Positions 1 to 42,446 of a stretch of DNA of 64,000 bases are shown here, piece after piece. Positions within the stretch are counted from its first letter, which is position 1. The number at the start of each line of letters is the position of its first letter. A program made the position numbers and the translations under genes. The notes under the pieces were generated by a model. It was not told the origin of the DNA. It saw nothing but the letters and a program-made list of their open reading frames with translations, and made no database searches. This DNA is from Clostridia bacterium (GTDB lineage Bacteria; Bacillota; Clostridia; Oscillospirales; Acutalibacteraceae): the NCBI GenBank assembly GCA_017521125.1, contig JAFXDV010000010.1:62001-126000 (forward strand), read 5' to 3'.

Positions 1-489
1 CGGCTGCTCCTTCATCAAATAATAGAACAGGCTCGTCCTATGTTTGAGAAACGGATTGGCGTAAAAGGCATGGTTCTAAAAAGCCACATTGATCCATATG
101 CTGTGCAAAACACCAAAAACAAGCTTGAACTGTTCCTTCTGGATATCATACGTCCCGGAAAGCAGTGTCTTCATGACAGGATAAATAACATCACAGATTA
201 TATGATGGAAAATATCCATCGTATGCTGACGCTTCAGGAGATGGCCCACGCACTGGGAATGAGTGTTTCCTCCTTAAAACGGCTTGTGCAGGAGGCTTAT
301 GGCAAATCGCCTGTTAAATATTTTACAGAGCTGAAGATTGAAGAAGCGAAGCGACTGATAATGCATTCTCCAATGAATATGACAGAAATCGCAGAGAAAC
401 TGGGCTATTCTTCCGTACATTATTTTTCAAGGACGTTTAAACAAAAAACAGGAAAAACACCTTCCGAATACAAAAACGCTTTTGGGTAA
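1..489 (+). CDS. AraC-family transcriptional regulator, C-terminal part (5' end outside window)
   Basis: The reading frame is open from base 1, so the start lies upstream of the window and only the last 162 residues are visible. The C-terminal hundred residues form the double helix-turn-helix of AraC/XylS regulators: a first helix pair around LTLQEMAHALGMS, then the family signature IAEKLGYSSVHYFSRTFKQKTGKTPSEYK. This part binds DNA; the ligand or sensor domain would be in the missing N-terminus, so the inducer cannot be guessed. No clear terminator of its own follows; the next feature is the tRNA-relic region. The motif match is strong; the target genes are unknown. Confidence 0.9.
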   Translation, partial: RLLLHQIIEQARPMFEKRIGVKGMVLKSHIDPYAVQNTKNKLELFLLDIIRPGKQCLHDRINNITDYMMENIHRMLTLQEMAHALGMSVSSLKRLVQEAYGKSPVKYFTELKIEEAKRLIMHSPMNMTEIAEKLGYSSVHYFSRTFKQKTGKTPSEYKNAFG

Positions 490-570
490 AAACAGTTTCA
501 CAAAGACCAAACAGACCGCAGAAGCCAGCGAAAACCTATCACTCCGAACTGTTTTCTTAACGCCAAAACC

Positions 571-1028
571 CTCTCGAGTTCGAGTCCCGCATGTAAAAAG
601 CAAAAAAAGAGAGCCAAACCACAGGGGCTTGTCTCTCTTTTTGGTGCCGGTGGTGGGACTCGCTACGGTGCTTTGCACCTACACGCCCACGTCAGCGAAA
701 ACAGTTCGCTGAACTGTTTTCTTCCGCATCGCTCCTTCCTGTTCGAGTCCCACATGTAAAAAGCAAAAATAAAAGAGTCGCACCTTACGGTACAACTCTT
801 TTATTTTGGTGCCGGTGGTGGGACTCGCCGTGTGTTGCACCCACTATTAGCTTGTCGACCCAAGCCTAACGCCTTCGGTACCCGACTGCGCCGCTCTGTC
901 TACAAAACAGTACACCGTACTGTTTTGTTTAACGCCAGACCCTCTCGGGTTCGAGTCCCCTAAAACAAAAAAATATCAAGTCAAACCTAAAGGCTTGTCT
1001 TGATATTTGGTGCCGGTGGTGGGACTCG
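571..1028. repeat. Tandem relics of tRNA 3' ends, each with its own terminator hairpin
   Basis: This gene-free stretch (about 490-1007) contains three units. Each has the T-arm word GTTCGAGTCCC on the plus strand (578-588, 741-751, 949-959), then an A/T-flanked hairpin (604-642, 767-806, 971-1008), then an identical 21-base block equal to the reverse complement of a tRNA-Leu 3' end including CCA (642-662, 807-827, 1008-1028). Only the third block continues into a complete tRNA. Within each unit CGAGTCCC and GGGACTCG are inverted around the hairpin, as if two convergent tRNA 3' ends shared one bidirectional terminator. Shorter repeats built on AACAGT...ACTGTTTT also recur at about 550, 698-722 and 906-927. 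The likely origin is repeated recombination or integration at tRNA 3' ends. I see no protein gene here. Confidence 0.7.
971..1008 (-). terminator. Terminator of tRNA-Leu
   Basis: An inverted repeat with arms AAATATCAAG and CTTGATATTT, extended inside by CAA/TTG and CCT/AGG pairs, lies immediately downstream of the tRNA on the minus strand and ends in a run of T. It is close to symmetrical and could also act on the plus strand. Confidence 0.75.
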
Positions 1029-1094
1029 AACCCACACGATGTTGCCACCAACGGATTTTGAGTCCGTCACGTCTGCCAATTCCATCACACCGGC
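1008..1094 (-). tRNA. tRNA-Leu, anticodon CAA
   Basis: The minus strand folds as a class II (long variable arm) tRNA of 87 nt with the CCA end encoded. The acceptor stem GCCGGUG pairs perfectly with CACCGGC, followed by A73 and CCA. The anticodon stem ACGGA/UCCGU encloses the loop CUCAAAA, placing CAA at 34-36, which reads UUG codons. The T arm contains GUUCGAGUC. The long variable arm (GGUGGCAACAUC) and A73 agree with leucine identity. A terminator follows directly, and two upstream copies of its 3' end lie at 642 and 807. Confidence 0.95.
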
Positions 1095-1146
1095 GATTAC
1101 TCTACAATTATACTCAAAACATATTTAAAAATCAAGTCTTTTATTA

Positions 1147-1179
1147 TTAAAAAATGCCCTTAGTAAAAACTAAGGGCAT
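1147..1179 (-). terminator. Terminator after the P-type ATPase
   Basis: On the minus strand the arms ATGCCCTTAG and CTAAGGGCAT enclose a short T-rich loop and are followed by TTTTTTAAT, just past the ATPase stop codon. Confidence 0.85.
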
Positions 1180-1184
1180 AGGCT

Positions 1185-3797
1185 TTAATGATGCTTCTTT
1201 ATAAGACCTAATGCTTTAGAGATTTCCATTACTATAAATGGTACTATAATAAGTCCTAAAGCAATGAGGTAAAGTTCGGTTGTAAGTGGGATAAGTCCGA
1301 AAATGCTTCGAATTGGGGTAAGGGTTACCAAAAGCACAAGAGCTGTAGAGCCGAGAGCTGCCCAGTTTAGTTTAGAGTTTGTGAAAATTCCCAGTTTAAA
1401 GAGGGAATGTTCGCTACGCATATTAAAGGCCTGAACAACCTGTGTGAGTGCTAAAACAATGAAAGCCATTGTCTGTCCGCCCTCAAGGCTTCCCATAACG
1501 TTTTCGCCCAGCTTAAAGCCGATAAGTGTGAGTGCCGCAAACATAAAGCCCTGTAATACAACACGGATACCCAGACCATTTGCAAAGATACCCTGATTCT
1601 TTGGCTTTGGTTTTTTATACATTATATCACTTTCAACCTCTTCCATACCAAGAGCAATAGCAGGTAGCGAGTCGGTTACAAGATTTATCATTAAAAGCTG
1701 CATTGAAAGTAACGGTGTTTTATGCCATAAGAGCATAGCTGCAAAAACGGTTATAACTTCGCCGATATTTGTACCGAGGAGGAAGCCTACAACCTTTTTA
1801 ATGTTGTCGTAAATTCCTCTGCCCTCTCTGACTGCGTCAACGATTGTAGCAAAGTTGTCATCGGTTAAGGTCATATCTGCGGCGCCCTTAGCAACGTCGG
1901 TACCTGTGATACCCATAGCGCAACCAATGTCGGCAGCCTTTAGGGCAGGAGCGTCGTTTACGCCGTCACCTGTCATTGAAACAACCTGACCTTTTCTCTG
2001 CCAAGCTTTTACTATACGAATTTTATTTTCAGGAGAAACACGTGCATAGACACTAATGCTTTCAACCTGAGCATCAAGCTCACTGTCGGTCATAGCATCA
2101 AGCTCCACACCTGTAATAGCACGGTCACCCTCAAGGAGAATACCAAGCTCTTTTGCAATGGCAGATGCGGTTACAACGTGGTCGCCTGTAATCATAATAG
2201 GCTTAATTCCTGCCTGACGGCAAACTGCTACCGCCTGTTTTGCTTCAGGTCTTGGTGGGTCTATCATACCCACAAGGCCCATAAAGGTTAGACCGTTTTC
2301 AAGGTTTTCGGAGGTAATTTCAGATGGGAGTTCATCAATCTCTTTATATCCGATAGCCAAAACTCTAAGAGCGTCACTACTCATTTGCTCTACCAAGGTT
2401 TTAGCTTTTTCTAAATCGCCTGCAACGCAGCGGTCTGCCATCATATCGAAGGCACCCTTAACGATTACAACCTTTTTGCCGTCTATAATATTAACGGTGG
2501 ACATTAACTTTCTGTCGGAGTCGAAAGGAATTTCTGCAATTCTCTCGTAATCTTTGTTAAGAGCCTCTTTGGTGTATCCGTTTTTATAGGAAGCGTATAC
2601 AATAGCGGTTTCGGTGGGGTCGCCGATATGCTGAACCGAATCGCCATCAATTACAACGCTACCGTCACTACAAAGGGTACCGTAATTTAAGAGTTTTCTG
2701 ATTTCTTCAGTGTTATTATCTGAAATTTCTTCAATTTCTCCACCGTCAACGTATGCCTTTGTTAAGGTCATACGGTTTTGGGTTAAAGTACCGGTTTTAT
2801 CCGAACAGATAACCGATGCGCTTCCCAGAGTTTCAACTGCAGGGAGTCTGCGGATAAGGGCGTTTTTCTTAACCATTCTTTGTACGCCAATAGAAAGAAC
2901 TATGGTAACAATGGCAGGAAGTCCCTCAGGAATTGCAGATACTGCAAGGGAAATTGAGGTCATAAAGATTTCAAGCACGGGAATTTTGTTTATAACGCCA
3001 ACAATAAAGATAATTCCGCAAGCAGCAAGAGCAACTATACCTAAATATTTGCCAAGCTGAGCCAGTTTTTCCTGTAAAGGAGTTTGACCCTCATCCTCGT
3101 TATCAAGAAGGGCTGCGATTTTGCCCATTTCGGTATCCATACCAATAGCGGTTACAACCGCAATGGCAGTTCCGTAGGTAATTGAGCAACCTGAAAAGAC
3201 CATATTTGTACGGTCTCCCACAGGGGCATTATCCTTAACCTCTGCCAAGGCATCCTTTTCGGATGGCACCGATTCTCCCGTTAGGGCAGATTCTTCAGAT
3301 TTAAGGCTTACACTCTTAATAAGTCTTGCATCGGCGGGAACGAAATCTCCTGCTTCAAGGAGAATAACATCTCCTACCACAAGGGATGCCGCATCCACAA
3401 TCTGCTCCTTGCCGTCACGAATAACCTTTGCGTGAGGCGCCGACATATTTTTTAGAGCATCAAGAGCCTTTTCTGCCTTGCTCTCCTGCATTACACCCAT
3501 AAGTGCATTAAGGATAACTATAAGCATAATAAGTGCCGGCTCAAAAAACTCCTTGGGGTTTTTCTCAACACAAGCAACCACAAAGGAAATTACCGCCGCC
3601 GCAATGAGAATTAAAATCATTGCGTCTTTAAACTGGTCAACAAAGCGTTGGAAATTAGTCTTTTTCTTTTTCTCCTTTAGCTTGTTGGGTCCGTATTTTT
3701 CAGCTCTTTGCTGAACTTCACTGCCGCTAAGACCTTTTTCCAGGTCGGTGGCGAGCTCTTTTACAAGCTCATCTGCATTTTTGTTATATGCAACCAT
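1185..3797 (-). CDS. P-type cation-transporting ATPase (Ca2+/Mn2+ type)
   Basis: This 870-residue membrane pump couples ATP hydrolysis to cation export and has the normal length for a bacterial P2-type (SERCA/PMCA-like) ATPase. In order it shows an N-terminal cation-ATPase domain, an actuator loop with LTGESVPSEK (a TGES-type motif), the M4 metal-site motif AIPEGLPA, the phosphorylation site DKTGTLT, the hinge TGDGVNDAPAL and a C-terminal six-helix domain. The start ATG has GGAGG six to seven bases upstream. The leader carries a yybP-ykoY-class riboswitch, a family that senses Mn2+ and often controls Mn2+ exporters and related P-type ATPases. Manganese export is therefore at least as likely as calcium export. 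The choice of ion is inference. Confidence 0.92.
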   Translation of the reverse strand: MVAYNKNADELVKELATDLEKGLSGSEVQQRAEKYGPNKLKEKKKKTNFQRFVDQFKDAMILILIAAAVISFVVACVEKNPKEFFEPALIMLIVILNALMGVMQESKAEKALDALKNMSAPHAKVIRDGKEQIVDAASLVVGDVILLEAGDFVPADARLIKSVSLKSEESALTGESVPSEKDALAEVKDNAPVGDRTNMVFSGCSITYGTAIAVVTAIGMDTEMGKIAALLDNEDEGQTPLQEKLAQLGKYLGIVALAACGIIFIVGVINKIPVLEIFMTSISLAVSAIPEGLPAIVTIVLSIGVQRMVKKNALIRRLPAVETLGSASVICSDKTGTLTQNRMTLTKAYVDGGEIEEISDNNTEEIRKLLNYGTLCSDGSVVIDGDSVQHIGDPTETAIVYASYKNGYTKEALNKDYERIAEIPFDSDRKLMSTVNIIDGKKVVIVKGAFDMMADRCVAGDLEKAKTLVEQMSSDALRVLAIGYKEIDELPSEITSENLENGLTFMGLVGMIDPPRPEAKQAVAVCRQAGIKPIMITGDHVVTASAIAKELGILLEGDRAITGVELDAMTDSELDAQVESISVYARVSPENKIRIVKAWQRKGQVVSMTGDGVNDAPALKAADIGCAMGITGTDVAKGAADMTLTDDNFATIVDAVREGRGIYDNIKKVVGFLLGTNIGEVITVFAAMLLWHKTPLLSMQLLMINLVTDSLPAIALGMEEVESDIMYKKPKPKNQGIFANGLGIRVVLQGFMFAALTLIGFKLGENVMGSLEGGQTMAFIVLALTQVVQAFNMRSEHSLFKLGIFTNSKLNWAALGSTALVLLVTLTPIRSIFGLIPLTTELYLIALGLIIVPFIVMEISKALGLIKKHH

Positions 3798-3847
3798 TCT
3801 TTTTCCTCCATTTTTATTAGTATATTGAATTTTTTGCTATATAATAC

Positions 3848-3957
3848 AAAAAAGACTTATCTGAAAAAATCAGATAAGTCTTGTCTTTTAATCTTAAGCC
3901 GGGGGGGAACCCCGATATGACGGCTTAATCACACTTTCGTGCAGACTACTCCCTTAA
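3848..3957 (-). promoter_or_regulatory. yybP-ykoY family (Mn2+) riboswitch with terminator platform
   Basis: Read on the minus strand, the leader contains UUAAGGGAGUAG (3956-3945), a hairpin with a GAAA loop, GCCGUCAUA, and a CGGGGUUCCCCCCCGG helix that ends in CUUAA. UUAAG and CUUAA close the aptamer as P1. These are the conserved parts of the yybP-ykoY aptamer. Immediately downstream a strong hairpin (AAGACTTATCTGA ... TCAGATAAGTCTTTTTT, 3850-3886) gives a transcription-termination platform before the ATPase start. This family is established as Mn2+-responsive, normally ON with metal, which fits an exporter. Confidence 0.85.
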
Positions 3958-3967
3958 CTATTGTACT

Positions 3968-3998
3968 ATTATAATACATTAATTGGAATATTTTGTAA
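3968..3998 (-). promoter_or_regulatory. Probable promoter of the riboswitch-ATPase transcript
   Basis: On the minus strand TTTACA is separated by 17 bases from TATTATAAT, ending roughly ten bases before the aptamer begins. This is a sigma-A-type match with an extended -10 region. Confidence 0.5.
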
Positions 3999-4006
3999 AG
4001 AATTTT

Positions 4007-4678
4007 TTAATATTCTTTTCTTCTTACAACTACGTTGTCCATACCTTTTACTATGCAATCGGCAGGGAAAACGCCACGAAGAGAGTTTAGAGGATAAACT
4101 GAAGTTCTCTTTCCGATAACTGTGCCGGGGTTTAAAACACATCCGCATCCTACGTCGGCATCATCACCTAAAATTCCGCCAATCTTACGAAGACCGGTTT
4201 CAAAATCCTCGTCGCCACGAATTACAACTGCTTTTCCGTCTGCCTTAAGATTTGAGCAGATAGAACCTGCGCCCATATGAGCGTGGTTTCCTAAGATGGA
4301 ATCTCCTACATAATTATAATGAGGAACCTGAGCTTTATCAAGAATAATACAGTTTTTAAGCTCGGTAGAGTTACCGATTACACAGTTTCTGCCAATAATA
4401 ACATTGCCTCTAATAAATGCTCCGGGTCTGAGTTCGGTTCCTTCGCCGATAATAGCGGGTGCCTCTATGGTAACAGTAGAAGCGATTTTTACATTTTCTC
4501 CAACATATACGCCATCGGAAATTTCTGTAAAGCCCTCAAGTCCTGTTGCTATCAAATCTTTAATGTGATTTTTGATTTCGGGAAGCATTTCCCAAGGATA
4601 CTCAAATTTTGCAAAGAACTCCTTTAAATATGGGGTCTGGCAGTCAAACAAATCTTTAGTTTTTACTAGTTTATTCAA
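4007..4678 (-). CDS. Left-handed beta-helix nucleotidyltransferase-like protein (GlmU C-terminal type)
   Basis: The product is about 223 residues. After an N-terminal segment of about 60 residues come hexapeptide repeats (VYVGENVKIASTVTI, IIGEGTELRPGAFI, VIIGRNCVIGNSTEL, GAGSICSNLK) typical of the left-handed beta-helix of GlmU and related acetyltransferases. There is no N-terminal pyrophosphorylase domain. I set the start at the TTG at 4678, with GAGGGAGG eight bases upstream; the sequence TTGAATAA overlaps the stop of the preceding gene, suggesting translational coupling. The neighbour encodes phosphoglucosamine mutase, so the pair probably serves UDP-GlcNAc or sugar-phosphate metabolism. 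Which step this protein carries out cannot be told. Confidence 0.8.
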   Translation of the reverse strand: MNKLVKTKDLFDCQTPYLKEFFAKFEYPWEMLPEIKNHIKDLIATGLEGFTEISDGVYVGENVKIASTVTIEAPAIIGEGTELRPGAFIRGNVIIGRNCVIGNSTELKNCIILDKAQVPHYNYVGDSILGNHAHMGAGSICSNLKADGKAVVIRGDEDFETGLRKIGGILGDDADVGCGCVLNPGTVIGKRTSVYPLNSLRGVFPADCIVKGMDNVVVRRKEY

Positions 4679-6290
4679 CGCTGTGGCCTCCCTCAACGAT
4701 TTTGTCTGCAATAGCGTTTGCATATTCTACGCAAAGCTCTTCGGATTCGGCTTCAATCATAACACGAATTACAGGCTCGGTACCGCTTTGTCTTAAAAGA
4801 ACTCGGCCGTTGCCGTCAATTAGTTTTTCAATTCTGTCTCTTTCTGCTAAAACTGCCTCATCAGCAAATACTGCGGGCTTGCTTTTTACTCTTATATTTT
4901 TAGTGTACTGCGGATATACCATTAGTCCTTCGGTTAATTGTGAAAGAGTTGCCTTTCTGTCGCAAAGCTCCTCTGCTATCATAATAGCGGTAAGGAGTCC
5001 GTCGCCTGTGGTAGCGTACTTTTTGATTATAACGTGACCGGACTGTTCTCCGCCCAAGCTATAATCTTTTTCTTGCATACATTCATATACAAAGCGGTCG
5101 CCAACCTTAGTTTGCTCACACCTCATTCCGATTTCGTCAAGGCTCTTAAAGAATCCGCTATTGGACATAACTGTTGCAACAACTGTGTTGCCGTTGAGCA
5201 TACCTCTGTCCTTAAAACGTTTGGCTAATATATACATAATAGCGTCGCCATCTACAATGTTGCCGTTTTCATCAACTGCAAGACATCTGTCGCAGTCTCC
5301 GTCAAAGGCAAAGCCTAAATCAAGGTGCTGTTCTTTTACCATCTTACAAAGGTTCTCAATATGGGTTGAACCGCAACCATTGTTAACATTTAGTCCGTCA
5401 GGTTCCGCACCTATAACTACCGTTTGGGCACCAAGAGCTCCAAACAAAGACTTTGCAAGGCTCCAAGAAGCGCCGTTTGCACAGTCAAGACCAATCTTCA
5501 AATTCTTATATGAATTTGAGGCGATTGAAATAAGGTATCCAAGATAACGATTTCTTCCTGAAACGTAATCTATGATACAACCGATTTTTTCTCTTTGTGC
5601 AAGTGGAAGGTCGGTTCCGTTAACTCCTAAATATTTAAGGTCTCCATCAATATAAGCCTCGATTAAAGAGGTGGTCTTATCGTCAAGCTTTTCGCCGTGG
5701 CGGTTAATAACCTTGATACCGTTATCATAGAAAGGATTGTGAGAAGCGGTAATCATAATTCCGCAGTCAAAATTATCCTGTCTTGTTACATAGGAAACAC
5801 TTGGTGTGGTGGTAACGTGGAGCATATAAGCATCTGCGCCTGATGCGGTGATACCTGCAACTATGGAATATTCAAGCATATAGCTGGAACGGCGAGTATC
5901 CTTACCTACAACTATCCGAGGTCTGTAGCCTGTCTTTGTGCAACCCGAAAGAGGGGAAGAATAATACCAACCTAAAAATCTTCCTACCTTATACGCCTGC
6001 ATAGAGGTTAGGTTTACGTTTGCCTCTCCTCTGAAGCCGTCGGTACCAAAATACTTGTTCTCTCTTTCGCCACCTTGCTGACACTCTATGGATATATCTC
6101 CCTTTAAAAGTTGGTCTGCGGTAATATCAAAAAGTTCGCAAAGTTGTACTATTTTATCTATCTGAGGCTGTGCCTGATTCATCTCCCATTTGGAAATCGA
6201 CTGTCTTGATACAGAAATCTTTTCTGCCAATGCTTCCTGAGACATATCTGCCGCTATTCGAAGTTTTGCAAGTTTTTCGCCTATTGTCAT
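4671..6290 (-). CDS. XRE helix-turn-helix domain fused to phosphoglucosamine mutase
   Basis: The 539-residue protein has two parts. Residues 1-65 are an XRE/Cro-type helix-turn-helix (LRIAADMSQEALAEKISVSR, then SISKWE). From about residue 79 a complete phosphohexose mutase follows, opening with KYFGTDGFRGEAN. It has the catalytic serine in TASHNP (Ser183), the metal loop DGDCDR, the sugar-binding GEQSGH and the phosphate-binding RQSGTEPVIRV. GlmM converts glucosamine-6-P to glucosamine-1-P for peptidoglycan precursors. A normal GlmM is about 450 residues and has no DNA-binding domain, so this is a real fusion, in frame and preceded by AAAGGTG. It may be an enzyme that regulates its own transcription. 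The mutase call is firm; regulation is inference. Confidence 0.88.
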   Translation of the reverse strand: MTIGEKLAKLRIAADMSQEALAEKISVSRQSISKWEMNQAQPQIDKIVQLCELFDITADQLLKGDISIECQQGGERENKYFGTDGFRGEANVNLTSMQAYKVGRFLGWYYSSPLSGCTKTGYRPRIVVGKDTRRSSYMLEYSIVAGITASGADAYMLHVTTTPSVSYVTRQDNFDCGIMITASHNPFYDNGIKVINRHGEKLDDKTTSLIEAYIDGDLKYLGVNGTDLPLAQREKIGCIIDYVSGRNRYLGYLISIASNSYKNLKIGLDCANGASWSLAKSLFGALGAQTVVIGAEPDGLNVNNGCGSTHIENLCKMVKEQHLDLGFAFDGDCDRCLAVDENGNIVDGDAIMYILAKRFKDRGMLNGNTVVATVMSNSGFFKSLDEIGMRCEQTKVGDRFVYECMQEKDYSLGGEQSGHVIIKKYATTGDGLLTAIMIAEELCDRKATLSQLTEGLMVYPQYTKNIRVKSKPAVFADEAVLAERDRIEKLIDGNGRVLLRQSGTEPVIRVMIEAESEELCVEYANAIADKIVEGGHSVE

Positions 6291-6345
6291 AAAATCACCT
6301 TTCTATATAAATAATATGTGGTTCAAGTCAATTATATAAAAGCCA

Positions 6346-6460
6346 TTTGTAAAAGTCTATCAACTATACATTGAACTTACCGCAACCTGAGGTTGCAAAA
6401 TTTTCGGTTTTTTTCCTTCGTTTTTGTTTATTATTGCTCTTTTTGTAAAAGTTTGTCAAC
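6346..6460. repeat. 19-bp direct repeat in the region upstream of the XRE-GlmM gene
   Basis: The 331-base gene-free stretch 6291-6621 holds two copies of TTTGTAAAAGTnTrTCAAC (6346-6364 and 6442-6460; two mismatches), 96 bases apart. On the minus strand each begins GTTGAyA, giving -35-like words TTGATA and TTGACA pointing at the XRE-GlmM gene. Between them is a small hairpin, GCAACC-TGA-GGTTGC, at 6381-6395. The copies could be operators for the XRE domain or two promoters. The rest of the stretch is AT-rich and carries the plus-strand promoter listed separately. Confidence 0.45.
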
Positions 6461-6544
6461 AATCTTTTACCTTCGCTCGTTTTTTACCCCTTTTTATTAT
6501 GTATAAAAATTTTTAAATTTTTCAAAATATATAGTAGAATACTA

Positions 6545-6573
6545 TTGAAAAAGCGATAACTTTTTGATATAAT
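6545..6573 (+). promoter_or_regulatory. Promoter of the cofE-like/guaA pair
   Basis: TTGAAA and a perfect TATAAT are separated by 17 bases, about 49 bases before the start codon of the CofE-like gene. Confidence 0.65.
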
Positions 6574-6621
6574 ATATTGTAATTTTTTAAATTTTTGTTT
6601 TACGAAGGGACGAAAAAAACA

Positions 6622-7824
6622 ATGGAAAACAAAGAACGCAAAGTTGGTACTGTTTCTCGTGGTATCAGATGCCCTATTATAAGAGAGGGCGATGACTTGG
6701 CTCAAATCGTTACAGACAGCGTTTTAGAGGCTGCTGAAAGCGAAGGTTTTGAGCTCAGAGATAAGGACGTTATTTCTCTCACCGAGTCTATCGTTGCACG
6801 TGCTCAGGGCAACTATGCTACAACCGATGATATTGCCGCAGACGTTAAGGCAAAGCTTGGCGGTGGAACTATCGGTGTTATCTTCCCTATTCTTTCACGT
6901 AACCGTTTTGCTATCTGTCTTAAAGGTATCGCAAAGGGTGCTAAAAAGATCGTTTTAATGCTTAGCTACCCCTCTGACGAGGTTGGAAACGAGCTCGCAG
7001 ACTGGGATAAAATCGACGAAGCCGGAATTAACCCTCATTCTGATGTTTTATCTTTAGAGCGTTATCGTGAAGTTTTCGGCGTTCATCCTCTTAAATTCAC
7101 AGGGGTTGACTACGTTGCTTACTACGAAAACCTTATTAAAGAGTGTGGCTGTGACGTTGAGATTATCTTTGCAAATCAGGCAAAGGCTATCCTTGGTTAC
7201 ACCGACACTGTTTTAAACTGCGATATTCACACTCGTGCTCGCACCAAGCGTCTTTTAAAGGCCGGTGGTGCAAAAACCGTTTTAGGTCTTGACGAAATTT
7301 TAACTAGCCCTGTAAACGGCAGCGGCTGCAACGAAAAGTATGGTCTTTTAGGTTCTAACAAATCTACCGAAGACAAGATTAAGCTTTTCCCAAGAGAGTG
7401 TAAAGATTTAGTTTTAGACATCCAGGGCCGAATCAAAGCCGCAACAGGCAAATCTGTTGAGGTTATGGTTTACGGAGACGGCGCATTCAAGGATCCACAG
7501 GGTAAAATTTGGGAGCTTGCAGATCCTGTTGTTTCTCCTGCCTTTACCGACGGACTTATCGGTACACCTAACGAATTAAAGCTTAAATATTTAGCCGACA
7601 ACGATTTTAAAGATTTATCAGGCGAAGAGCTTAAAAAGGCTATTTCAGACAGTATCAAAGCCAAGGACGGAAGCAGTTTGGTTGGAAATATGGCAGCTCA
7701 GGGTACTACACCACGTCAGCTTACCGACCTTATCGGTTCTCTTTGCGATTTAACAAGCGGCTCAGGCGACAAAGGCACTCCCGTTGTTTTAGTTCAGGGC
7801 TACTTTGACAACTATACTAACTAA
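6622..7824 (+). CDS. CofE-like protein (coenzyme F420-0:L-glutamate ligase family)
   Basis: The protein has 400 residues. Its N-terminal half matches the F420:gamma-glutamyl ligase fold: IRCPIIREGDDLAQIV, then DKDVISLTESIVARAQGN, then VIFPILSRNRF. Genuine CofE adds glutamate to coenzyme F420-0, but it is about 250 residues long. F420 is not expected in most Clostridia and no other F420 gene is in the window. The protein probably belongs to a paralogous family with an unknown amide-ligase role. I chose the ATG at 6622 because GAAGGGA precedes it and the family motif starts soon after. The downstream gene, the synthetase half of GMP synthase, follows 14 bases later, so the two are probably co-transcribed. 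The family is clear; the substrate is not. Confidence 0.75.
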   Translation: MENKERKVGTVSRGIRCPIIREGDDLAQIVTDSVLEAAESEGFELRDKDVISLTESIVARAQGNYATTDDIAADVKAKLGGGTIGVIFPILSRNRFAICLKGIAKGAKKIVLMLSYPSDEVGNELADWDKIDEAGINPHSDVLSLERYREVFGVHPLKFTGVDYVAYYENLIKECGCDVEIIFANQAKAILGYTDTVLNCDIHTRARTKRLLKAGGAKTVLGLDEILTSPVNGSGCNEKYGLLGSNKSTEDKIKLFPRECKDLVLDIQGRIKAATGKSVEVMVYGDGAFKDPQGKIWELADPVVSPAFTDGLIGTPNELKLKYLADNDFKDLSGEELKKAISDSIKAKDGSSLVGNMAAQGTTPRQLTDLIGSLCDLTSGSGDKGTPVVLVQGYFDNYTN

Positions 7825-7838
7825 TGGAGGAATTTGTA

Positions 7839-8840
7839 ATGGATTGCAACAAAAGGCCTGAATCTATGGAGCGTATAACCACAAAAGAGCTTGCAAATGC
7901 GTTTATTGATGAACAGGTAGAATTAGTCAGAAAGCAGGTTGGAGACAAAAAGGTGCTCCTCGCTCTTTCAGGAGGCGTTGACTCTTCAGTTGTTGCTGCT
8001 CTTCTTATTAAGGCTATCGGCAAACAGTTGGTTTGCGTTCACGTTAACCACGGACTTATGAGAAAGGGCGAAAGCCAGGGCGTTATCGATATGTTCCAGG
8101 GCGAGCTTGACGCTAACCTTATTTACGTTGATGCTACCGATCGTTTTCTTGATTTACTTGCAGGAGTTTCTGAGCCTGAGAAAAAGAGAAAGATTATCGG
8201 TAAAGAATTTATCGAGGTTTTTGCCGACGAAGCAAGAAAGCTGGAGGGCGTTAGCTTTTTAGCTCAGGGCACAATTTATCCTGACATTTTAGAAAGCATT
8301 AAGGCGGCAGAAGGCAAAAAGGCTGTTAAGTCCCACCACAACGTTGGCGGTCTTCCTGAGGACCTTAAGTTTGAACTTGTTGAGCCAATTAAGCTTCTCT
8401 TTAAAGATGAGGTTCGTGTAGTAGGTGAGGCTTTAGGTCTTCCACACGCTATGGTTTATCGTCAACCATTCCCAGGCCCCGGTCTTGGCGTTCGTTGTCT
8501 CGGCGCTATCACACGTGACCGTCTCCACGCTCTTAGAGAGGCCGATGCAATTTTAAGAGAAGAGTTTGACAATAACGGCCTTGCAGGAAAGGTTTGGCAG
8601 TATTTCATTGCCGTTCCCGACATCAAGAGCGTTGGCGTTAAGGACGAGAGCAGATACGAAGGTTGGCCTGCAATTATCCGTGCGGTAAATACCACCGACG
8701 CTATGACTGCAACCATCGAAGAAATTCCTTACGAAATTCTCCACAAAATTACTTATAGAATCACCCACGAGGTTGAGGGCATTAACCGAGTTCTTTTAGA
8801 CCTCACACCAAAGCCAATCGGAACGATAGAGTGGGAATAA
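7839..8840 (+). CDS. guaA: GMP synthase, ATP-pyrophosphatase subunit without amidotransferase domain
   Basis: The protein has 333 residues and converts XMP to GMP using ATP and ammonia. It contains the PP-loop SGGVDSS (residues 44-50) and the GuaA-specific C-terminal dimerisation domain (RQPFPGPGLGVRCLG, ending LTPKPIGTIEWE). Standard bacterial GuaA is about 510 residues and starts with a glutamine amidotransferase domain of about 190 residues, which is absent here. Two-subunit GMP synthases of this type are known from archaea, so a separate amidotransferase is expected elsewhere, or free ammonia is used. I chose the ATG at 7839 because GGAGG lies eight bases upstream; the ATG at 7824 overlaps that site. 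A terminator follows at 8894. Confidence 0.93.
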   Translation: MDCNKRPESMERITTKELANAFIDEQVELVRKQVGDKKVLLALSGGVDSSVVAALLIKAIGKQLVCVHVNHGLMRKGESQGVIDMFQGELDANLIYVDATDRFLDLLAGVSEPEKKRKIIGKEFIEVFADEARKLEGVSFLAQGTIYPDILESIKAAEGKKAVKSHHNVGGLPEDLKFELVEPIKLLFKDEVRVVGEALGLPHAMVYRQPFPGPGLGVRCLGAITRDRLHALREADAILREEFDNNGLAGKVWQYFIAVPDIKSVGVKDESRYEGWPAIIRAVNTTDAMTATIEEIPYEILHKITYRITHEVEGINRVLLDLTPKPIGTIEWE

Positions 8841-14420: not shown

Positions 14421-14735
14421 AATAAAAAGCCCTGAGGCAATTAGCCTCAGGGACGAAAACTTAAAATTTCGCGGTACCACCCTGCTTACCCACCTAAAAA
14501 GGCGAGTCACTCAAACAGCTTCTAACAAAGCCTTGCCCGTAACGGAGGCCGCCGTGTTTCATTACTTGCTATAGCCAAAGCATTCAAACCCGAATCAGAT
14601 TTTGGGATAAGGTTTTCACGAAACCAACTCAGGAAGGAGACTGTTTATCTTTTTGCATCGGTTCGCACCAACCACCGACTCTCTGAAGCGAATTTTAATA
14701 AACAGAGTTTCCGTCAACGTTATTTTATATGGTAT
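14421..14735 (-). promoter_or_regulatory. T-box leader with Leu (CUC) specifier
   Basis: On the minus strand the leader has the distal Stem I motif CAGAGAG...GGTTGGTGCGA, the T-box AGGGTGGTACCGCGA (14483-14469) and a terminator CCCTGAGGC/GCCTCAGGG with T tail (14421-14453). Stem I pairs as GGAA/UUCC and CUGUUUAU/AUAAACAG, with loop ACU on one side and UCUCC on the other. The central triplet of UCUCC is CUC, a leucine codon (14639-14637). The base after it is C, whereas a purine is usual. UGGU in the T-box pairs with an ACCA tRNA end, as in tRNA-Leu. Uncharged tRNA-Leu should switch the downstream pair on. Confidence 0.88.
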
Positions 14736-14836: not shown

Positions 14837-15108
14837 AAGTTATTTAAAAGCTGTGACGAAGACGGCAAGGTTTTAAGGTCTACAGAGAGTCGACGGGTGG
14901 TGCGAGTCGACGACGGATAAACCAATTTGCCCATCACTTCCGAGCCGGTTGGCCGAGTATATTTTTACCAGGTCTTCCCGTTTGCCTGCGTTAAAGGATA
15001 GGGCTTACTAAAGAGCCTGAAGTGACGGCATTCTTGCCGTAATTTGAGTGGTACCACGGGTATTAAATTTACTCGCCTCAAGATTTTTCTTGAGGCGATT
15101 TTTTATTT
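14837..15108 (+). promoter_or_regulatory. T-box leader with Ile (AUC) specifier
   Basis: The leader has the distal Stem I motif CAGAGAG...GGGTGGTGCGA, the T-box motif GAGTGGTACCACGGG (15046-15060) and a terminator TCGCCTCAAGA/TCTTGAGGCGA followed by T (15073-15108). Stem I pairs as GAAG/CUUC and GGCAAG/UUUGCC, leaving CAUCA on the 3' side of the specifier loop. Its central triplet is AUC (14933-14935), an isoleucine codon, followed by A as is usual. UGGU matches an ACCA tRNA end. It controls the first XRE-cupin-synthetase gene. Confidence 0.88.
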
Positions 15109-17434: not shown

Positions 17435-17717
17435 TAATCAAAGGCGTTGATGGAGAGTTATATTGAAAATACTCTGTTTCAGAGAGATGACGTTTGGTGC
17501 GAGTCATTACAGAACTCAGTATATGTAGCTCCGGAGTCTGGAGGAAGAAAGCTTTTGCCGTAGAACCTCCGCGTGTAAGCGACGTAATGGCTTAGGGTGT
17601 GTTGGCACCTTGTGAGTGGTATTTGCTGTGAGGCAAATGCAATTTGAGTGGTACCGCGGGTATGCTTTTTACTCGTCTCAAAGGAATCAAACTTTGAGAC
17701 GAGTTTTTGTTTTTTGG
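17435..17717 (+). promoter_or_regulatory. T-box leader with Val (GUA) specifier
   Basis: The leader has CAGAGAG...GTTTGGTGCGA in Stem I, the T-box motif GAGTGGTACCGCGGG (17646-17660) and a terminator ACTCGTCTCAAAG/CTTTGAGACGAGT followed by T (17671-17717). Stem I pairs as GGAG/CUCC and an 8-bp helix UAUAUUGA/UCAGUAUA, leaving AGU opposite UGUAG. The central triplet is GUA (17525-17527), a valine codon, followed by G. UGGU matches an ACCA tRNA end. It precedes a synthetase gene and, by close spacing, the VOR and leucine dehydrogenase genes. Confidence 0.88.
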
Positions 17718-40508: not shown

Positions 40509-42446
40509 TTATATATCAAGGTCGGTAGCAAATACCGCATTTTCTTCAATAAACTGTCTTCTGGGTTCTACCTCTTCGCCCATTAACATACTAAAGGTTG
40601 CATCGGCAACCTCTGCGTCTGCCATTGTAACTCTTAGCATTGTTCTTGTTTCCGGGTCAAGTGTGGTTTCCCATAACTGATCAGGGTCCATTTCACCAAG
40701 ACCCTTATAACGCTGAACGTCTGCTGTGCCGCCTAGTTTTTCAATATATTCCTGCTTTTCCTCATCTGTAAAGGCATCAAAGTGTTGTTTGCCTTTTGAT
40801 ACTCTGTAAAGAGGAGGCTGTGCCAAATAAACGTGGCCTGTCTCAATAAGTTGAGGCATATATCTGAAGAAGAAGGTTAAAAGAAGTGTTCTGATGTGTG
40901 AACCGTCTACGTCGGCATCGGCCATAATTACTATTTTATCATAGCGAAGCTTTTCAATATTAAAGTTTTCGCCTATTCCTGTGCCTAACGCAACAATAAC
41001 AGGTGTCAACTTATCATTTCCGTAAACTTTGTCTTCTCTTGCCTTTTCAACGTTAAGCATTTTACCCCATAGTGGTAAAATTGCCTGATAGGTACTGTTT
41101 CTTCCCTCAACCGCACTACCGCCTGCAGAATCTCCCTCGACGATATAAATTTCGGTTTTTGTTGGGTCGTCTGAAATACAATCGGTAAGTTTTTCAGGCA
41201 TACGGGTTTTTCCGCCGATTCCTGATTTATTTCGAGAAGCATCTCTTGCTTTTTGTGCCGCTTCTCTTGCATTAGATGCGGCAATAGCCTTATCAATTAC
41301 TGTTTTTGCATCGCTTGGATTTTCTTCTAAGTATTTATAAAGCTGGTCGTTTACAATTTCTCTTACCAACTGTCCTACAGAGGTATTACCAAGCTTTGCC
41401 TTTGTCTGAGATTCAAACTGTGCATCTGCAAGTTTTACAGAAACTACGGCAACAAGGCCTTCCATAATATCCTCGCCTTTAAGATTATCTGAATCTACCT
41501 TTAATTTCTTAAAGTCGTGGGCATATTTATTTACAACCCTTGCCACAGTCTGTCTGAATGCTTGCTCGTGGGTACCTCCGTCAATGGTATGGAGGGTGTT
41601 TGCAAAGGACATTATTTTATTATCATATGCGGTAGACCACATAAGCGCAATTTCTGCGGTAGAATCTCCCTTTGAGCCTGCAAGATAAATAATATCTGAA
41701 ATTGGGTCTTTCTTTATACCCTTGCAAATATAATCAACGTAAGATTTAATACCACCTTCATAACAAAGGTCATCATTTTTAGGCTCGAATACGTTGGTTC
41801 TCTTATCCTCTAAAACAATTCTTATACCTGCATTAAGGAAAGCTTGTTCACGAAGGCGGTTTAGAAGGGTATCGTAATCGTAAACTATAGTATCTGTAAA
41901 GATTGTGGGGTCAGGTTTAAAGGTAACTGTTGTTCCTGTATCATTACACTCGCCAACAACCTCTAAATCTGAAACGATATTGCCCTTTTCATATCTCTGC
42001 TTGTAAATTTTCTTTCCGTCGTGAACCTCAACCTCAAGCCAGGAAGAAAGGGCGTTAACAACCGAAGCACCAACTCCGTGAAGACCACCTGATACCTTAT
42101 ATCCGCTTCCGCCGAATTTACCACCTGCGTGAAGAATTGTAAATACTACCGTTACGGTAGGAATTCCTTTTTGTGGATTGATACCAACAGGGATACCACG
42201 TCCGTTATCGGTAACACGGATTATTTCATCATCTAAAATTTCAACCTTTATTTTATCACAATATCCTGCAAGCGCCTCATCTATTGAGTTGTCTACGATT
42301 TCGTAAACAAGATGATGAAGTCCTCTTTCACCCGTAGAACCGATATACATACCCGGTCTTTTTCTTACGGCTTCAAGTCCCTCTAATACCTGTATGGAAT
42401 TTTCATCATAATTTTCTGTTACAGGAAGATTTGTTTCTAAACTCAT
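40509..42446 (-). CDS. gyrB: DNA gyrase subunit B
   Basis: The 645-residue protein has the GHKL ATPase (EIVDNSIDEAL, GRGIPVG, GLHGVG), the transducer, and the TOPRIM domain with VEGDSAGGSA and DADVDG. It supplies ATP hydrolysis for gyrase. Its length is normal for Gram-positive GyrB without the extra E. coli insert. It sits 18 bases after remB. Confidence 0.97.
   Translation of the reverse strand: MSLETNLPVTENYDENSIQVLEGLEAVRKRPGMYIGSTGERGLHHLVYEIVDNSIDEALAGYCDKIKVEILDDEIIRVTDNGRGIPVGINPQKGIPTVTVVFTILHAGGKFGGSGYKVSGGLHGVGASVVNALSSWLEVEVHDGKKIYKQRYEKGNIVSDLEVVGECNDTGTTVTFKPDPTIFTDTIVYDYDTLLNRLREQAFLNAGIRIVLEDKRTNVFEPKNDDLCYEGGIKSYVDYICKGIKKDPISDIIYLAGSKGDSTAEIALMWSTAYDNKIMSFANTLHTIDGGTHEQAFRQTVARVVNKYAHDFKKLKVDSDNLKGEDIMEGLVAVVSVKLADAQFESQTKAKLGNTSVGQLVREIVNDQLYKYLEENPSDAKTVIDKAIAASNAREAAQKARDASRNKSGIGGKTRMPEKLTDCISDDPTKTEIYIVEGDSAGGSAVEGRNSTYQAILPLWGKMLNVEKAREDKVYGNDKLTPVIVALGTGIGENFNIEKLRYDKIVIMADADVDGSHIRTLLLTFFFRYMPQLIETGHVYLAQPPLYRVSKGKQHFDAFTDEEKQEYIEKLGGTADVQRYKGLGEMDPDQLWETTLDPETRTMLRVTMADAEVADATFSMLMGEEVEPRRQFIEENAVFATDLDI

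Follow-up and report, generated by a model that had tools for sequence, protein, structure and literature searches.

Tail-copy arrays behind tRNA genes as members of a folded unit family in a clostridial order

The array behind tRNA-Leu(CAA) in the window, the whole 64-kb stretch of DNA that was analysed, is very probably (roughly 95%) one member of an order-wide family of tRNA-tail units. After the terminator of its tRNA gene, a unit opens with an inverted copy of the host's T-arm, continues with a folded body and closes with a copy of the host's own tail, behind which roughly half of the units have a terminator copy. The host tRNA stays whole at the units, and its transcript should stop at the first terminator.

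The array behind tRNA-Leu(CAA)

The 20-mer GGTGCCGGTGGTGGGACTCG occurs in three exact copies in the window, all on the + strand and starting at 643, 808 and 1009, and no further copy with up to three mismatches is present there (chance expectation 0.00). Once the A of CCA is counted, the tail common to all three is 21 nt long, and the copies are spaced 165 and 201 nt apart. Allowing up to two mismatches, the inverted T-arm word matches five times in the 64 kb (shuffle mean 0.45): three matches lie in the array, one is the tRNA itself and one is at 42369. For the bodies we used two covariance models, R1, built from 13 type A units (alignment A1), and R2, built from type B units. The parts of the array and its neighbours are collected in Table 1.

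Table 1. Parts of the tail-copy array and neighbouring genes, in window positions
Feature	Position	Strand	Basis
tRNA-Leu(CAA), whole, encoded CCA; tail 1008-1028	1008-1094	-	Sequence and tRNA search
Terminator-like hairpin 1, immediately 3' of CCA	971-1008	-	Inverted repeat and sequence
Inverted host T-arm copy, 13/13 nt, opens unit 1	947-959	-	Inverted-repeat and word search
Unit 1 body, type A	828-946	-	R1 match 807-959, 149.5 bits (not independent: one of the 13 units from which R1 was built); fold
Second tRNA tail copy, exact, 21 nt	807-827	-	Word search
Terminator-like hairpin 2	766-807	-	Inverted-repeat search
Inverted T-arm, unit 2	739-751	-	Inverted-repeat and word search
Unit 2 body, shorter variant	663-738	-	R1 match 642-751, 44.3 bits
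Third tRNA tail copy	642-662	-	Word search
Terminator-like hairpin 3	604-642	-	Inverted-repeat search
Inverted T-arm, partial third unit	576-588	-	Word search
Truncated third-unit body, no tail copy seen behind	490-575	-	Weak R1 match 437-588, 32 bits
AraC-type regulator, cut by window edge	ORF 40-489	+	Neighbour
Cation P-type ATPase (Ca-ATPase)	1185-3797	-	Neighbour

A first-pass annotation of this DNA had described an identical 21-base tRNA 3' end occurring three times, each copy beside a different terminator hairpin and an inverted T-arm word, with a single whole tRNA; all of this is borne out, and ARAGORN gives Leu(CAA) as the only tRNA in the window. The array is present where it had been placed (571-1094) but reaches somewhat further, since in the weakest R1 match a partial third unit touches the AraC-type gene's end or overlaps it. 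The folded body of unit 1, about 120 nt long, runs in order through a GNRA-capped first hairpin, a AAAACAGT hairpin, a GTCG/CGAC hairpin and a last hairpin. Treated as a single DNA strand, 490-1100 folds more stably than 20 of 20 shuffles (z -6.56). Elsewhere in the window, Rfam places three T-box leaders within about 3.2 kb, at 14446-14726 (-), 14844-15083 (+) and 17438-17683 (+).

The unit family in the source genome and across the order

The genome holding the window (G000) is a 1.33-Mb draft, 93.65% complete. Of 19 stretches retrieved from it, 18 together span its 31 tRNA genes. Behind ten of the 31, at a distance of 143-200 nt, 16 nt of the gene's own tail recur exactly. The first-pass annotation had proposed searching the genome for more copies of the units, and that search was productive: with up to 4/20 mismatches allowed, an own-tail copy follows 12 of the 30 distinct tRNA genes listed, a set that includes two genes without downstream sequence. 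The same scan gave 6 of 34 in G009, 2 of 21 in G002 and 1 of 23 in G007; in G016, from a different genus within the family, the single gene flagged among 34 was a tRNA-Ser with a second tRNA-Ser behind it. The G000 loci follow a common plan, with terminator and inverted T-arm ahead of the body and tail and terminator behind it; Gln-TTG, Thr-TGT and Tyr show it in a somewhat degraded form.

The ends of the units follow the host. Among 21 units of the genus, tail copies begin in or just past the T-loop and run to CCA; they are 18-22 nt long in 18 units and 17 nt in one, with Gln-TTG and Tyr degraded. Compared with all tRNAs of the genome, the inverted T-arm matches its host at least as well as any other in 18 of 20 units, with the host as sole best fit in 7 and in a tie in 11. 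R1 gives 16 matches in G000, of which 12 lie behind tRNA genes, two form an orphan array on contig 5 and two are weak (C16:10017-10142 and C6:81690-81796, at 27 and 24.7 bits). One tail of the orphan array is exactly that of tRNA-Pro(TGG) of G002 and the other differs from it by two mismatches; both are unlike the present tRNA-Pro(TGG) gene of G000, and arrays can therefore outlive or lose their tRNA. Three local peculiarities were also noted. On contig 6 of G000 (L292), 3' of tRNA-Met(CAT), a gene of about 1.2 kb for an HTH protein sits inside the unit array. Behind tRNA-Glu of G002 (L077), a type B unit has a repeated end, with GTACCCCGTCC present five times at a 41-nt period. The Rfam Gut-1 RNA stands directly behind tRNA-tail units at L055 (771-845) and L037 (3723-3791).

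R1 matched in 16 of 40 relatives and, with at most ten candidates scored per genome, in 71 of 295 genomes of the order, spanning 44 of 149 genera; R2 matched in 8 of the 295. Of 58 R1 loci fetched, 52 were checked for an upstream tRNA, the six left out being units already counted (L128, L129, L134, L144 and L145) or part of the same array as L141 (L154). A tRNA lies within 1200 nt upstream at 44 of the 52, and 39 of these 44 have a unit that closes with the tail of that same tRNA by a cut-off of at most 4/20 mismatches, whereas mismatched pairings with other isoacceptors pass the same test in 48 of 1826 cases. Mean tail mismatches are 1.93 to the own tRNA versus 9.47 to other isoacceptors. At 12 distant type B loci with a tRNA, all outside the genus, the ungapped tail test passed in none; by local alignment, the host tail beats every mismatched tRNA at four of the 12 and ties at one. 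Two of those four wins are clear (tandem units, both behind one tRNA-Ser of G194) and two are by 1-2 points; L319 has a full tail copy elsewhere within 420 nt.

The remaining eight R1 loci have no tRNA in reach, four of them starting within 155 bases of a contig end and four not. At L138 a phage-integrase ORF (tyrosine recombinase by Pfam) is followed by 13 nt of tail, the hairpin and the unit, and at L241 and L155 large serine recombinase ORFs (Pfam) cross, on our reading of the sequence, about the last six tail bases into the hairpin. We read these three integrases as later insertions ahead of a unit already present. L250 has an alpha-galactosidase-like ORF and no tRNA. Relatives of the L241 recombinase, 32-45% identical, occur on four viral contigs.

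Comparison of bodies indicates that vertical descent and dispersal between tRNAs both happen, some bodies having spread between different tRNA genes while their ends follow the host. Despite differing tails, the Ser-CGA, Arg-CCG and Glu units of G000 have bodies that are 91-94% identical, and the Arg-CCG bodies of G000 and G004 are 72% identical. Body types differ between G000 and G009 at the same tRNA in three cases (Pro-CGG, Arg-ACG and Glu). The nearest body to each of 21 genus type A units lies behind another tRNA of the same genome in 7 cases, behind the same tRNA of another genome in 4, and differs in both respects in 10. Mean body identity is 0.758 for the same tRNA in different genomes (9 pairs), 0.661 for different tRNAs in the same genome (37 pairs) and 0.645 where both differ (164 pairs), and the Thr-TGT bodies of G001, G002 and G005 are 81-84% alike. 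Since same-tRNA bodies are on average the most alike, vertical descent accounts for a large part.

Fold of the unit and its likeness to the E. coli RtT repeats

In the type A fold, drawn from the 13 sequences of A1, the closing stem is formed by the inverted T-arm paired with the tail copy. It is followed by a GNRA-capped hairpin, whose 5' arm is the complement of the T5' strand, and then by three hairpin arms. The closing stem and first hairpin of the body track the T-arm of the host tRNA. In A1, 23 of 48 pairs are changed on both sides and 95.0% of cells pair, with a covariation score of 0.424 versus a shuffle mean of 0.170 (0.05-0.10 with slid partners). In 62 model-fitted sequences, an alignment biased toward the structure, 40 of 48 pairs are changed on both sides, 94.1% pair and the score is 0.493 versus 0.151. 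Covariation is found in 9 of 9 helices in A3 and in 7 of 9 in A1. Changes are shared among related sequences, and matched ones can also arise when palindromes are corrected during replication; the covariation therefore indicates a constraint on the folded form and not necessarily an RNA product. We read the conserved fold as a sign that the single-stranded form, whether RNA or ssDNA, is under constraint. That the unit has a selected RNA function is rather doubtful, at perhaps a one-in-three prospect. Folding of single units as RNA was mixed, with z-scores of -4.38, -2.42 and -3.44 for three units of this family, and of -0.95 and -2.86 for two of the E. coli units described below. The second body type, B (A2, five sequences), has a fold of its own on an unchanged plan.

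The second tail is followed by a terminator copy in 23 of 48 units, first and second terminators being alike beyond the 99th percentile of mismatched pairs; in the other 25 they are not alike. We also considered the first terminator as an element-borne family and rejected this, because, although first terminators resemble one another more than the terminators behind empty tRNAs do (6 of 2000 permutations), the second terminators show the same degree of likeness.

Of known systems the closest are the RtT units of E. coli, which have the same plan. At the tyrT/tyrV locus of K-12 (annotated rttR/tpr), exact 19-nt copies of the tRNA-Tyr tail occur: tyrV is followed by three at 178-nt spacing, and a further one lies between tyrT and tyrV. 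The Rfam model RtT (RF00391) calls all four units. RtT RNA is released during tRNA processing. The parts of an RtT unit are an inverted T-arm, a copy of the T5' strand with TTCG, the body and the tail, in the same order as in our units, and the window array resembles RtT in carrying tandem copies of the tRNA tail behind a tRNA. In three E. coli units the inverted T-arm reads GGATGAGAA, a word also found in some type B units of our family, for example at Pro-CGG of G000 and at Glu of G009, and the inverted T-arm of the three units behind tyrV is GGAAGGATGAGAAGCTTC. The tail junction GAGTA is found in those three units and in 4 of 5 type B units, and GATGAGAA and GAGTA occupy the same places in RtT units and in some type B units. 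RtT differs in occurring at one tRNA-Tyr locus in E. coli, whereas the units here stand behind tRNA-Leu and many other tRNA species across an order.

Model searches were made in both directions. Without filters, the four best R1 matches at the K-12 locus fall exactly on the RtT units, at 13.9-18.2 bits and E-values of 5e-5 to 9e-4; the four units are near-copies, so that the matches count about once; the next match there scores 6.9 bits, and the best in a control of 13.4 kb of unit-free G016 tRNA loci scores 11.7 bits. With default filters, R1 found one of the four and R2 none. R2 was set aside as a bridge to RtT, its unfiltered scores of 11-12 bits being no better than the control at 11.0. 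The Rfam RtT model, which E. coli passes as a positive control, gave no match in the window at threshold (45 bits), none at E<=1 for 480-1100, none at E<=10 in seven type B loci and none in 40 relatives. The units described here are thus not members of Rfam RtT, but they share its plan and have a weak but specific model similarity to it, and common descent is at most hinted at. In the open-access literature we found nothing on such arrays and nothing linking RtT to a wider class. A short palindrome behind Methanopyrus tRNAs (PMC5217627) is different from the units here.

Origin and spread of the units

We put at even odds a route of spread by replication template switching at T-arm microhomologies with no element-specific enzyme, a mechanism deduced from its products. 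DNA synthesis over the tRNA tail and terminator hairpin would snap back, copying the T-arm inversely. Microhomology in the T-arm would then let the nascent strand switch to the body of a unit behind a different tRNA, and microhomology in the T-loop would bring it back to the home tRNA, where the tail and often the terminator are recopied. Such a route would yield the tail copies, copied terminators and host-matching inverted T-arms described above. Arrays would lengthen or shorten through recombination between tail copies, and the body would carry no enzyme. As a claim in itself, spread that needs no dedicated transposase falls a little short of an even chance. Against template switching stands the inverted acceptor part that a fresh snap-back should leave: at least 9/11 of it is present in only 4 of 62 units (host mean 6.6 versus 6.2 for other tRNAs). 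The two of these in which it is complete, 11/11, at tRNA-Pro of G125 and tRNA-Tyr of G080, speak for the route. Also against it are the unlike terminators of 25 of 48 units, the greater average likeness of bodies at the same tRNA, and the type B loci outside the genus at which the ungapped tail test failed. No recent strain-level gain of a unit was seen in the genomes compared, and a tRNA-specific recombinase could yield the same products.

It is a tentative idea, and one we hold to be unlikely as it stands, that the E. coli tyrT/RtT repeat is an outlier of a widespread class of enzyme-free units, whose inverted T-arm acts as a guide that selects tRNAs with a matching T-arm and allows the unit to regenerate the tail and terminator of the chosen tRNA, leaving the host gene undamaged. 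The family itself makes a general class, with many natural replicates, of a single old curiosity, the tail repeats at E. coli tyrT, and thereby opens origin and function to comparative tests; it may also show how a repeat colonises essential genes safely without a transposase.

An unlikely but still substantial alternative is a miniature mobile element placed behind tRNAs by a site-specific enzyme encoded elsewhere, with the tail as target duplication and the inverted T-arm as guide or recognition arm. The narrow range of tail-copy lengths, the match of the inverted T-arm to the host, the likeness of bodies between different tRNAs of one genome and the integrases at such tRNA ends in relatives are all consistent with it. 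An enzyme is harder to place: RVT_1, Y1_Tnp, IS110 and Cas1 gave no match in G000, a draft in whose gaps such genes could sit. Among 13 genomes, RVT_1 is found in 2, Y1 transposase in 6, Cas1 in 5 and DEDD IS110 transposase in 2, one of these over the cut-off. The terminator is copied too in 23 of 48 units, which makes the duplication longer than usual target duplications. Across 12 stretches of 7-20 kb with 15 tRNAs, the only distant second tail belongs to the tRNA-Met array of G000, some 2 kb beyond the tRNA; between the two lies the HTH-protein gene and no transposase.

Several more specific routes were tried and rejected. First, a circular element inserting at the T-loop would, on moving between tRNAs, leave the donor's tail on the tRNA; the Arg-CCG unit of G000 shows nothing of the kind. 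Second, a simple 20-nt target duplication does not cover the copied terminators. Third, the four enzymes searched for in G000 were dropped as engines for lack of a match there. Fourth, the search of 7-20 kb stretches for a larger autonomous version gave only the tRNA-Met array with its HTH-protein gene.

Less probable again is an RNA gene family passed on by vertical descent, in the manner of E. coli RtT: read-through would release a structured RNA downstream of tRNAs, and the need to pair with the host tRNA would keep its ends matched to it. The covarying helices, the plan shared with the tyrT/tyrV repeats and the greater average likeness of bodies at the same tRNA argue for it, while presence at orthologous tRNAs is patchy, body types switch between species at the same tRNA and palindrome correction can mimic covariation.

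The first-pass annotation had read the array as relics of repeated integration and excision at tRNA-Leu. Recombination at a tRNA 3' end is a fair part of that reading, as arrays vary among related genomes and integrative elements do enter such tRNA ends in relatives; the scar of repeated integration and excision itself is unsupported and, we judge, very improbable. The same folded body, with covarying helices, stands behind many different tRNAs in many genera, and the units, at the spacing of the tail copies, are too short to hold an integrase gene. Neither an integrase gene nor element remains were found between the tail copies, and Pfam named no integrase among the 4 of 11 neighbouring ORFs of 1-8000 that were scanned. 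Integrative elements that target tRNAs (attL/attR) likewise use the tRNA tail and leave a second copy; unlike them, the units are gene-free, stand behind many tRNAs, each ending in the tail of its host, and share a conserved fold. The family is a warning that a tail copy behind a tRNA gene need not be an integration scar. R1 gave no match in 80 loci of named genomes that carry the neighbouring Ca-ATPase, and no tRNA-Leu(CAA) was found in the 36 of them scanned for tRNAs, so that there is no direct empty-site comparison at the tRNA-Leu locus. Recombination among convergent tRNA genes, the other explanation then offered, is dismissed, the window having one tRNA and the T-arm words belonging to units.

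Palindromic repeats of the REPIN/MITE type are likewise short, folded, dispersed and gene-free. Unlike them, the units are placed by tRNA tails and have host-matching ends, and G000 has no Y1 transposase match. Phage contigs have palindromic repeats, away from tRNAs, that also contain the AAAACAGT..ACTGTTTT hairpin. Nine viral contigs carry this hairpin, and six of the nine also have a full-model R1 match at E<=0.01 (L266, L268, L269, L271, L273 and L274). L274 (55.6 bits) is the sole one of the six with a tRNA, and the unit behind it closes, by eye, with a copy of the tRNA's tail that differs at one position; we read it as host flank. The other five are weak, at 24-34 bits, and by eye L266, L269, L271 and, less clearly, L268 are GC-rich palindromic repeats. 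L267 has a partial R1 match cut by the contig end, and L270 and L272 have the hairpin alone. A phage-borne version of the unit was set aside on these grounds. L266 and L269-L272 carry a GC-rich palindromic repeat (in L269, GGGGGCGTCGAGCGCCCGGAAAACAGTCCAGTGGACTGTTTTCAGCGAGACGC...GCCCCC) with the central hairpin of type A, away from tRNAs. Among the copies of this repeat in L269, the outer arms vary, by eye, in a matched fashion.
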